Below, one piece after another: positions 30,336 to 34,039 of a stretch of DNA of 64,000 nucleotides. The DNA is taken from positions 62,001 through 126,000 of the forward strand of contig JAJEIQ010000014.1 of the NCBI GenBank assembly GCA_022827905.1, written 5' to 3'. Origin of the DNA: Pseudomonadales bacterium (lineage in GTDB: Bacteria; Pseudomonadota; Gammaproteobacteria; Pseudomonadales; Azotimanducaceae). The notes beneath the pieces are model-generated. The model made no database searches. It was not told the DNA's origin and saw nothing but the letters and a program-made list of their open reading frames with translations. The position numbers and the translations under genes were made by a program. Each line of letters opens with the position of its first letter. Position 1 is the stretch's first letter.

Positions 30336-30953
30336 TCAAAGTCCAATCGTCAGCGAAGTGCCCGTAACATAGCCTTGGGGGCGGACCAGCAGGCGCCCCA
30401 GCAGAGCGGTCAGGCTAGCCGACGGTTCCCCGCTTGGTTGGCCGGAAACGATCAGCGCGTTGGCGAGCAGGGGTGGCTTGAGCGGCCCACCTTCCGACGC
30501 CGCCACCAAGCTCATCTGCCGCAGCGCCCCGTTGCGGATGTCGGCGGCGAGAGCGGCCTCCTCGCCAGCCGCCGACTCTCCCGTCAGCGCCACCACGTCA
30601 GTCGCCGCCTTGACGCGCTGGCGTTTGGCCAGCTTTAGGTGGAAGTGGTAGCTGGCGATGCTCTCCTCAATGAAATCAGCCATCGCCTCGCCATCCCGCA
30701 GGTCGCGTCCGACGAAGACGAGGGCGTCGGCGCCGTCAATGGCAGCCGCCACCCGGTCCAGCGCCGTACCGACCCGCGCCTCCTCCTTGAGCTCAGCGAT
30801 TTCGAGGCGCACTGCACAATCCGAGCCCACTTCGATGGCCTGCGCGCCCAAGGCTGCCAGGCAGGCCGCCGCCTGATCCCGGAGCGGCTCGGCCTCGCCC
30901 GCCAAGACCACCGTGCGACCGCGAAGGGCGTCAGCTAGCGAGAAATCCGCCAT
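30336..30953 (-). CDS. Degenerate SDR-like protein (probably non-catalytic)
   Basis: A 205-residue protein that I recognise only weakly. The N-terminus RTVVLAGEAEPLRDQAAACLAALGAQAIEVGS has the beta-alpha-beta rhythm of a Rossmann fold but lacks TGxxxGxG. The C-terminus VRPQGYVTGTSLTIGL resembles the last strand of SDR enzymes. No YxxxK is visible. AGGAGG precedes ATG 30953, and the gene overlaps the end of a canonical SDR by 23 nt. In known cases such as BbsC/BbsD an inactive SDR subunit pairs with an active one encoded beside it; that role is an inference here. Confidence 0.55.
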   Translation of the reverse strand: MADFSLADALRGRTVVLAGEAEPLRDQAAACLAALGAQAIEVGSDCAVRLEIAELKEEARVGTALDRVAAAIDGADALVFVGRDLRDGEAMADFIEESIASYHFHLKLAKRQRVKAATDVVALTGESAAGEEAALAADIRNGALRQMSLVAASEGGPLKPPLLANALIVSGQPSGEPSASLTALLGRLLVRPQGYVTGTSLTIGL

Positions 30954-31710
30954 CGGCCAGCACCTCCTGATCTTCGAGTCGAATGGCAGGATCGAGCATC
31001 AGCAGCAGTGTTTCGCCGATCTCCTCCGGTTCCGCCCAGCGCCGCAGCGGGATGGTCTCGGCGAGCTGATTGACCAGCGGCGAATCGCGGCCAATGGCCT
31101 TGTCCACTTGCGGCGTCATGGTGTACCCCGGCAGCAGGCTCTTGACCTGCACCCGGTGCGCCTGTCCGGCGAGCATCCGCTCATAGGCCTGGTTGAGGCC
31201 GGCCATGCCCCCCTTAGTCGCGCAGTAGGCGCTCGCGCCATCCTGGCCCGTGCGGCTCAGTACCGAAGAGACATTGACCGCCATGCCAGGGAAGCCGCGC
31301 GCACTGTGGGACTCCGCAATGATCGGCACGCAGTGCTTGAGCCCGTAGTAGGCGCCGATCAGATTGACCCGCACCAGCGACATCAGGGTCTCGGCAGGGG
31401 TTTCCTCGATGGGGCTCAGATGGGAGATGCCCGCGTTGTTGACCAGAAAGTCGAGGCGTCCGAAGCGCTTGAGGGTCTCCCCGGTGACCCGTTGCCAATC
31501 GGCCTCCGAGCCAACGTCCTGGGGCGTGTAGATCACTTCAAGGCCCAATCCCGCGAAATCCGCTTCGGCCTGCCGGCCATCAGTCTCGGTGCGGGCGGTA
31601 ATAACCACCCGCACACCGGCGCCGCCCAGCGCCGCGGCGCAGCCGTAGCCAATCCCGGTGCTGCCGCCGGTAACGATGGCGACACAATCCCTCAAGCGAT
31701 CCCCGGTCAT
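30931..31710 (-). CDS. Short-chain dehydrogenase/reductase
   Basis: A 259-residue classical SDR. TGGSTGIGYGCAAALG is the nucleotide loop, NNAGIS the structural motif, and SSVLSRTGQDGASAYCATK contains catalytic Ser, Tyr and Lys. RTETDGR after strand 2 suggests NADP(H) preference. It starts 7 nt after the candidate selenoprotein and overlaps the next gene, in a five-gene operon. Substrate unknown. Confidence 0.88.
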   Translation of the reverse strand: MTGDRLRDCVAIVTGGSTGIGYGCAAALGGAGVRVVITARTETDGRQAEADFAGLGLEVIYTPQDVGSEADWQRVTGETLKRFGRLDFLVNNAGISHLSPIEETPAETLMSLVRVNLIGAYYGLKHCVPIIAESHSARGFPGMAVNVSSVLSRTGQDGASAYCATKGGMAGLNQAYERMLAGQAHRVQVKSLLPGYTMTPQVDKAIGRDSPLVNQLAETIPLRRWAEPEEIGETLLLMLDPAIRLEDQEVLADGGFLAS

Positions 31711-31717
31711 CGATTCG

Positions 31718-32062
31718 TTAGCCGAAAATCTCGGTGAACAGGGCTTCGTTGAACCCCACGAGAAGCGTGTCCCCCACCACCATCGTCGGCGCGCGCAGAT
31801 TGCCCGTGGTACCTAGCATGGCCGTCACCGCGGCATCAGAGGTGATGTCAGCGCCGCTGAACTCGCTCAGTTTTCGGCCCTTGGCAACCGCTGCCCGGTC
31901 GGCCTTCTTCAACAGTTCCAACGCGTCGCCGCGCTGCAGCTTGCGGCTGGCGGGAACGGTCTCGGCCACTTCGATGCCTCTGGCCTCCAAAAACTTGGAG
32001 GCTCGTGTGCAGCTCGTTCAGCCGCCGCGGTGGTAGTACCAATCAACAGTCGGTGCAGTCAT
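31718..32062 (-). CDS. Candidate selenoprotein: ArsC/glutaredoxin-like thiol protein with UxxC motif
   Basis: The frame opens at ATG 32062, behind AAGGAG with ideal 7-nt spacing, and reads MTAPTVDWYYHRGG, then TGA (32020-32018), then TSCTRASKFLEARGIEV to a stop at 31718: 114 residues if UGA is decoded. The part after the UGA has the ArsC/Spx-like pattern, including NLRAPTMVVGDTLLVGFNE with the cis-Pro strand. The UGA falls at the first Cys of a CxxC-type motif (U15-T-S-C18). A perfect 8-bp stem with GUUU loop begins 15 nt after the UGA (see 31983-32002). Other genes in the window use TGA as a stop, so code change is excluded. Alternatives are a sequencing error (TGC or TGT read as TGA) or a dead gene; starting at TTG 31990 would discard both redox residues. 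Confidence 0.75.
31983..32002 (-). promoter_or_regulatory. Candidate bacterial SECIS hairpin
   Basis: In the mRNA, GCCUCCAA pairs perfectly with UUGGAGGC around the tetraloop GUUU. The stem begins 15 nt and the loop 23 nt after the in-frame UGA. Bacterial SECIS elements lie inside the coding region just after the UGA, with the apical loop about 16-37 nt away and a G among the first two loop bases; all of this is satisfied. Confidence 0.7.
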
Positions 32063-32149
32063 CGGTTTCTCCTTTCGATTAGCGTAGTTTCCAGATTGGA
32101 TCGTGCCTTCGCAAGGCCACGCATCGCCTTCGGCGGTGCACAGGCCCAG

Positions 32150-32941
32150 CTATCGGTGATCGACGAAGACGTGCTCCTTGGCGAGCCACATGGTGGAGCG
32201 CTTGAAGTCGATGAAGTGGGCCTCATCCGCCACCGCCCGCCGTCCGGCCGCAACCTGCTCCGGCGTTGAACCCATGAGGGCGGCGCGCTCGAACCAGAGT
32301 TCCGCGTGGCCGTCATAGGCCTCAACCTCGGTGCCCCGGGCGCTGGCAAAGGCCCCGTCAAGCGCCTCATCGCGCACCCGATGCACTTGCAGATAGCGCA
32401 AAATGCCGGACCCCGCCGCTTGGCGGCGGATGAGCGGGCCGTGGTTGGCATACCAGTGCTCGTGGGCCTCGCTGAGCGGGAGAGCGGCTTGCATGCGCAG
32501 CGGAAAGTAGAGCTTCACCAAGCCGCTGCGCGGCGTGGCGACTAGGTTCTCCGGCGTCGGATTGACCTGCGGAAACTCGTGGCACAGCCAGAGCGGCGAG
32601 TTGGGCAGGTCGATGAACTTGGCCTCGTCCGCCACCAAGGCCTTGGCAGCGGCGCGGCCAGCGGGGGCGGATGAAGCCTCCATCAGCGCCGCCCGGCTCT
32701 CGAACCAAGCCTCCGCCACGCCGTCGTAGATGGGCTCCATGCCGCCCCGCGCCCGGGCCATGCCGGCCGCGGCGGTGAGCGCCGCCTCATCACGCAGCGT
32801 GTGAACCTGCACATAGCGCAGCATGCCCAATCGGTGGGCGTGGCTGGCCACCAACGGGCCATGCTCCTCCAGCCAGTACTGGTAAAACTCATCGTGGCTG
32901 AGTTTCGGCTGCTTGCGCAGCAGAAAGGTGAGGCGCAACAT
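32150..32941 (-). CDS. Tandem EthD-domain protein
   Basis: A 263-residue protein with two EthD (dimeric alpha/beta barrel) domains. Domain 1 starts LRLTFLLRKQPKLSHDEFYQYW with EEHGPLV and LRYVQVHT; domain 2 at about 140 repeats the pattern (LSEAHEHWYANHGPLI, LRYLQVHRV, YDGHAELWFE). EthD proteins are small accessory or monooxygenase-like proteins in ether and polyketide metabolism. It begins 2 nt after the metallo-hydrolase stop and precedes the candidate selenoprotein. Confidence 0.82.
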   Translation of the reverse strand: MLRLTFLLRKQPKLSHDEFYQYWLEEHGPLVASHAHRLGMLRYVQVHTLRDEAALTAAAGMARARGGMEPIYDGVAEAWFESRAALMEASSAPAGRAAAKALVADEAKFIDLPNSPLWLCHEFPQVNPTPENLVATPRSGLVKLYFPLRMQAALPLSEAHEHWYANHGPLIRRQAAGSGILRYLQVHRVRDEALDGAFASARGTEVEAYDGHAELWFERAALMGSTPEQVAAGRRAVADEAHFIDFKRSTMWLAKEHVFVDHR

Positions 32942-32943
32942 CG

Positions 32944-33888
32944 TTAGCCGCCAGCCCTTTGCAAGCTGGTGTAAGCACGGTTGACGAAGCCGAACGGATC
33001 GCCGAAGGCCTCGTCGAACGGCGCCGTGGGCTTGGCCTCCAGGACCGCTTCAAGGTCGGCACCTTCCGCCATGAGGTCCATGATGGCGGCCCGAACGGTC
33101 TTGAGCATGTCGATGTAGTCCACCAGCGCTTGATGGTCGGTCACCGGGCCGTGGCCCGGGATGACCGTGGTGTCCTCGTCAATTTCGGCGAGCACCGATT
33201 CGCAGAAGTGGATCATGCCGTCGAGGTCGCCGCCGTTGTCTGCGTCGATGAATGGATAGCCCGCGTTGTTGAACACGTCGCCCATGTGGACGGCATTGCG
33301 GCCGCGGAAGATCACCGCCGCATCGCCGGTGGTGTGCGCCGGACCGAAGTGGGCCAAGTCGATCTGCTCGCCGTTGAAGTGGAACTGCATCGTCTCATCG
33401 AAGGTGATCGCCGGCCGGGCGTCCTCCGGATAGGCCTGCTGCTCATACTGCATCGCCACCAGATTGATGATGTGGGCGTCCGCCATCATCCGCCGCGAGT
33501 TGGCTTGGGCCACCAGCCAACTGCCCTGCGGACCTAGGGCCAGGTTGCCCTCCGCATGGTCGAAGTGCCAATGGGTGTTGATGACGAAATCCACCGCGCC
33601 GCCGCCAAGCTCGGAAATCTTGGCTTCAATCTTGGGCACGAGCTGCGGAAACTGATCATCGACGATCAGCACGCCATCTTCGCCGATGCTGACGGCGATG
33701 TTGCCGCCTAGGCCGAACAGGACGTAGAGACCCTCGCCGTGGTGCTCCGCCGTGATCTCGGCGCTATCGAAGTCCCAGCCGAAGGCGCCCATCAACTCAT
33801 CGAGCGTCATCGCGTCATGGGCTAGGGCATGGGACGTTGCAAACGTCAGGCTGGCGGACAACAAGGCCATCGAAACAGTGCTGCGCAT
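32944..33888 (-). CDS. Secreted metallo-beta-lactamase-fold hydrolase
   Basis: A 314-residue protein with a Sec signal peptide (1-23, ending HALAH). THWHFDHAEGN (His106, His108, Asp110, His111) is the dizinc motif; AHTTGDA and PGHGPV supply further metal ligands. Its overall form resembles periplasmic MBL-fold hydrolases rather than true beta-lactamases; substrate unknown. ATG 33888 has GAGGGGG eight nt upstream. It is the first gene of the operon running to 30336 and is divergent from an aminotransferase gene. Confidence 0.87.
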   Translation of the reverse strand: MRSTVSMALLSASLTFATSHALAHDAMTLDELMGAFGWDFDSAEITAEHHGEGLYVLFGLGGNIAVSIGEDGVLIVDDQFPQLVPKIEAKISELGGGAVDFVINTHWHFDHAEGNLALGPQGSWLVAQANSRRMMADAHIINLVAMQYEQQAYPEDARPAITFDETMQFHFNGEQIDLAHFGPAHTTGDAAVIFRGRNAVHMGDVFNNAGYPFIDADNGGDLDGMIHFCESVLAEIDEDTTVIPGHGPVTDHQALVDYIDMLKTVRAAIMDLMAEGADLEAVLEAKPTAPFDEAFGDPFGFVNRAYTSLQRAGG

Positions 33889-34039
33889 CGGAATCCCCCT
33901 CAGGTGCAGTGCGGCCGGAAGTTTCGGGAAAGAGTAACCGAATCGTCCGTGCAGCACGAGGGCCGTGACGGCAGCAATCTGGCCGCTTCACCTGAACCCC
34001 GTGATAGCATTGCGCCGCCTTCGAAGGACCAGCCAGCGC

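Follow-up and report, generated by a model that had tools for sequence, protein, structure and literature searches.

A member of the NF041106 family of ArsC-related UxxC selenoproteins predicted in a Pseudomonadales bacterium

Selenoproteins related to ArsC have been listed several times. The accessible part of a 2026 review (PMC13188914) contains an entry named 'Arsenate reductase-like protein' (NF041106, UxxC), which it traces to an ocean metagenome survey published in 2008 (PMC2398784, its reference 61). The corresponding excerpt of that study gives 'Arsenate reductase 2, cd03032, UxxC' with 42 sequences, the excerpt of PMC9312934 holds an entry of the same name, also with UxxC, and that of PMC1794560 counts ArsC-like selenoproteins. 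The sequences of PMC2398784 and PMC9312934 belong to NF041106 only by the attribution made in the accessible text of PMC13188914. As UxxC family entries appear in the available parts of PMC13188914, PMC2398784 and PMC9312934, proteins of this kind are already in print. Among the matches listed in a search of the literature on selenoproteins in sponge symbionts, no title concerned the NF041106 family.

The locus analyzed here lies in a 64,000-nucleotide stretch of DNA from a Pseudomonadales bacterium, which we call the window. Read through its in-frame TGA, the gene yields a product of 114 amino acids with a predicted Sec15. The NCBIfam profile NF041106, 'ArsC family (seleno)protein', aligns with this product over positions 1-107 of 107, i.e. 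its full length, at 104.5 bits against a cut-off of 85. The feature that marks membership, a UGA-encoded Sec opening the UxxC motif, is found in TGA codon 15, in the motif U-T-S-C and in the aligned column of the relatives. Compared with the NF041106 (ArsC_rel_Se_1) entry as it appears in the excerpt of PMC13188914, the window protein has a whole-length match over the cut-off, the UxxC motif, a thioredoxin-like fold and, in its relatives, UGA at the same aligned place, with no difference among the features tested. It is not a new family because it scores 104.5 bits against NF041106, which the accessible part of the 2026 review already lists as UxxC; the locus is a further member of a known selenoprotein family and is ordinary in kind. 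The original description of the frame as 'ArsC/glutaredoxin-like' was correct, and the exact family had already been named.

Translation bears out the original prediction for the layout of the gene, all elements of which (AAGGAG, ATG, 14 codons, TGA and 99 further codons) are present (Table 1). The start codon ATG occupies positions 32062-32060 of the minus strand, and the frame closes with TAA at 31720-31718. The TGA is codon 15 and stands at the first position of U-T-S-C, as had been proposed. By eye, and uncounted, purine-rich stretches are also seen upstream of the start in many of the 29 family members described below.

Table 1. Features of the predicted selenoprotein locus in window coordinates.
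Feature	Position	Strand	Basis
ArsC-related selenoprotein gene (predicted), NF041106 family	31718..32062	minus	Translation, NCBIfam match, same TGA-bearing frame in relatives
Shine-Dalgarno sequence AAGGAG	32069..32074	minus	6 nt upstream of ATG, read from sequence
In-frame TGA, predicted selenocysteine codon, residue 15	32018..32020	minus	Conserved; Cys in one exception
Predicted bacterial SECIS hairpin	31983..32002	minus	8-bp stem, GUUU loop, covariation in relatives

The similarity to ArsC proper is remote. The Pfam model ArsC (PF03960) matched with 19.4 bits (E 0.0013), under its gathering score of 24, and by sequence the window protein appears to be a distant relative of that family. An AlphaFold model built from 29 aligned sequences has a mean pLDDT of 93.4 and a pTM of 0.85, and it places the first strand at residues 8-11, followed by the U-x-x-C site. 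A Foldseek search with this predicted thioredoxin-like fold returned Spx as the best match (E 5.7e-05), with glutaredoxins and ArsC-related proteins ranking next; just three matches had E <= 0.001, and the query TM-scores were at most 0.57 among the 50 matches listed. In a profile search of solved structures, the arsenate-reductase-related 2m46 was found at E 2.6e-08 and Spx (1z3e) at 2.6e-06. The Spx, YffB and ArsC-related structures (6gho, 1z3e, 2m46 and 1rw1) resemble the window protein in that their profiles match over most of its length and that Spx gives the top fold matches, whereas the identity is 17-19%, the query TM-scores are only 0.55-0.57 and the rmsd is large; the NCBIfam scores for the Spx models are under their cut-offs. 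The fold group is evident, and within it the window protein lies far from the solved members. The Uxx-star glutaredoxin-like selenoproteins (NF041212 and NF047338) match weakly in the glutaredoxin-like N-terminal part, with scores well under the cut-offs (22.6 vs 66 and 14.2 vs 97, respectively).

The genome of a bacterial selenoprotein gene must also carry selA, selB, selD and tRNA-Sec, and an absence of the sel genes would speak against the selenocysteine reading. The window sits in contig C46 of a 4.44 Mb assembly (81 contigs, 96.76% complete), and selA (TIGR00474, 502.6 bits vs a cut-off of 267.9), selB (TIGR00475, 409.6 bits vs 242.25) and a tRNA-Sec with the anticodon UCA (75.7 vs 47) form one cluster in contig C47. 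SelD was found in contig C64 as the C-terminal part of a 722-residue open reading frame (265.7 bits vs 125). All four components are therefore present in the window's genome, each over its cut-off.

Several minor observations were made on these genes. By eye, the N-terminal part of the SelD fusion (L168:1422-3590, minus strand) resembles an oxidoreductase. Many SelD matches in the taxonomic family lie in frames of at least 720 residues, and in four of its genomes SelD has an in-frame TGA (L049-L052). In the window's genome, an integrase-domain gene is located 165 bp downstream of tRNA-Sec (L045:3889-5070 and L045:5236-5328, both minus strand). The selC gene serves as an integration site, and an integrase gene beside tRNA-Sec is what is expected if this tRNA gene was one. 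A second selenoprotein was sought with one family, formate dehydrogenase alpha, which was found over the cut-off and carries no in-frame stop.

The original prediction called for an alignment of homologues at the TGA position. In a sample of 51 genomes from the same taxonomic family, 29 encode the protein over the cut-off (G222 reaches it only with its neighbours in the frame counted in), and 28 of these 29 have exactly one in-frame TGA. The exception, G223, has no in-frame TGA and carries a Cys at the site, in the motif C-P-A-C. Of the 28 genomes with TGA, 26 gave a match to SelB, 26 to tRNA-Sec and 24 to SelD, and none lacks all three. One TGA genome (G209, 91% complete) gave a SelD match only, with neither SelB nor tRNA-Sec matched. 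The gene for the Cys form (L082:1483-1821, minus strand) belongs to a genome that keeps SelB, SelD and tRNA-Sec.

Outside the taxonomic family, the protein was found over the cut-off in 4 of the 194 genomes of the order sample, each with one TGA and with SelB over the cut-off, SelB itself being over the cut-off in 26 of the 194. A further 66 genomes of this sample gave weak sub-cut-off matches only, listed without an in-frame stop, which we take as general ArsC relatives. The search of named genomes yielded 536 confirmed relatives; the best 80 of the 536 were read for the site, and all 80 have TGA there. The record titles of these 80 name Gammaproteobacteria, Myxococcota, Deltaproteobacteria, Acidobacteria, Entotheonella and Planctomycetes. 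The named-genome and taxonomic-family sets seem to overlap in part and are not summed. In the phylum sample, one of 398 genomes matched at E <= 1e-12, the window's own; among viral contigs, five stretches fit a pattern, none of which encodes a relative.

The bacterial SECIS is described in the accessible part of PMC13188914 as a stem of 4-16 bp with a loop of 3-9 nt (Fig. 2 legend), a G within the first two loop positions, a distance of 16-37 nt from UGA to the loop and a minimum free energy of at most -7.5 kcal/mol. The hairpin of the window consists of the arms GCCTCCAA (32002-31995) and TTGGAGGC (31990-31983) around the loop GTTT (31994-31991). It had been proposed as an 8-bp stem without mismatches, capped by a GUUU loop and lying 15 nt past the TGA, and this is what the sequence contains: all eight pairs are perfect, and the hairpin starts 15 nt 3' of the TGA. 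With a 4-nt loop opening with G, 8 bp, a loop 23 nt after UGA and -14.2 kcal/mol for the 45-nt segment, it falls within the ranges of that excerpt. The window contains 1724 TGA triplets in any frame and on both strands, this one included, and a Watson-Crick hairpin of 8 bp with a loop of 3-8 nt lies 5-35 nt after nine of them (0.5%).

A comparison across relatives shows that the hairpin covaries. In a set of 81 sequences (75 distinct), tested against the structure taken from the window's own sequence, 88.2% of the cells are paired, as against at most 46.2% when the partner is slid by 1-3 columns, and both partners have changed in 28 cells, which belong to five of the eight pairs. Covariation scored 0.093, compared with a shuffled mean of 0.033, and none of 500 shuffles scored as high. 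A smaller set of 28 sequences gave 87.5% paired, four cells changed on both sides and again no shuffle of 500 as high, although in further pair types it did not exceed the shuffles (386/500). The clearest switch links the third positions of the sixth and eleventh codons past the UGA, which in the 81 sequences form C-G in 15, G-C in 12, A-U in three and U-A in one, with an A-A mismatch in 35. One stem pair is unpaired in 41 of the 75 distinct sequences and another in 21. The G at the first loop position is invariant (81/81). In the 28 UGA genes, the Leu of the 3' arm is encoded by TTG 25 times, whereas TTG makes up 33 of the 235 Leu codons that these genes contain from codon 21 onwards. The Cys form of G223 keeps four of the eight hairpin pairs, whereas the 28 UGA forms keep six to eight.

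Taken by itself, the hairpin fares weakly in energy-based tests. The folding energy of the 45-nt segment has a z-score of -1.74, and 13 of 200 shuffles fold equally well or better. A synonymous-shuffle test on 12 of the 29 sequences was not supportive, with p <= 0.05 in one of the 12 and two folding worse than the mean of their shuffles. RNAalifold predicted four of the eight stem pairs from the 81 sequences, and an Rfam scan of 30500-33500 gave no match up to E 1. Conservation across relatives is the stronger evidence for the hairpin.

Taken with the sel genes and the conserved TGA, the covarying hairpin supports the original reading of the codon as selenocysteine. We put at roughly 94% the probability that the product is a selenoprotein of 114 residues with a thioredoxin fold, belonging to the ArsC/Spx/glutaredoxin group and having Sec inserted at the UGA, and we infer that the insertion takes place at residue 15.

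A TGA is only one base away from TGC or TGT, and errors do occur in draft assemblies, so that a Cys codon might have been misread, or mutated in a pseudogene. However, the frame downstream is intact and the sel genes are present. The same codon is TGA in 28 of the 29 family members and in the best 80 of the 536 relatives, which therefore excludes a read error, and we regard an error or a pseudogene as the least probable of the alternatives, with next to no chance of being true. It is only slightly less improbable that the protein starts downstream, at TTG 31990 or another codon, and that the upstream frame is a short leader closed by the TGA. The original prediction had expected gene callers to begin at this TTG, and a mechanical ORF finder indeed reports a 90-residue frame from there, in which the redox site is missing. 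Against such a start speak the ribosome binding site upstream of ATG 32062 and the conservation as protein of the residues N-terminal to the TGA, W8, Y10 and R12 being invariant across the 29 aligned rows. Moreover, the 90-residue form would miss the first strand and the U-x-x-C of the modelled fold.

An open frame in which TGA stands for a residue leaves the identity of that residue unstated, and Trp or a near-cognate amino acid could in principle be inserted by readthrough instead of selenocysteine. Yet, of 13 further ORFs inspected near the gene, 10 terminate with TGA, which is therefore a normal stop in this genome region. The sole non-UGA member of the 29 has Cys at the site, and the tRNA-Sec, selA, selB and the covarying hairpin all argue against Trp or near-cognate decoding, which we consider very unlikely.

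If selenocysteine is inserted, the ribosome would initiate at ATG 32062, and SelB with GTP and Sec-tRNA-Sec, acting on the downstream hairpin, would place Sec at residue 15, so that no termination occurs at the UGA. In thioredoxin-fold proteins with a UxxC site, Sec generally acts as the attacking selenolate and Cys as the resolving thiol. By analogy, Sec15 and Cys18 may form the redox pair of the folded protein: the selenolate of Sec15 would attack a disulfide or an oxidised substrate, Cys18 would resolve the intermediate to a selenenylsulfide, which thioredoxin or glutathione, as the cellular thiol, would then recycle. Arsenate reduction by the window protein is not implied.

A plain ORF call at this locus drops the redox site of a conserved selenoprotein. 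The locus adds a member to the NF041106 family, relatives of which number at least 536 in the genomes searched, and it leaves knowledge of selenocysteine insertion itself unchanged. With its family-wide UGA and covarying hairpin, the protein makes a good small test case for selenium use in uncultured bacteria. We would tentatively entertain, without favoring it, the idea that the family is near-obligately selenium-based: Sec would have been fixed before the spread over several phyla, the uniformity of the peptide A-S-K-F-L-E-A beside the redox site would be due in part to its codons serving as SECIS, and the rare Cys form would have lost most of the hairpin.

The neighbourhood was compared over 81 loci by crude ORF picking, which in the window chose an antisense ORF for the downstream side, and the largest neighbour cluster obtained in this way spans 14 of the 81. 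The cluster with the window's EthD neighbour spans four loci, the window included. As the neighbourhood varies among the 81 loci, gene context does not give the function, and this variation weakly suggests a general redox role rather than a pathway-specific one. In the window itself, genes separated by short gaps form a possible operon at 30931-33957 on the minus strand, with a metallo-beta-lactamase-fold protein, an EthD-domain protein, the selenoprotein and a short-chain dehydrogenase as its possible members.
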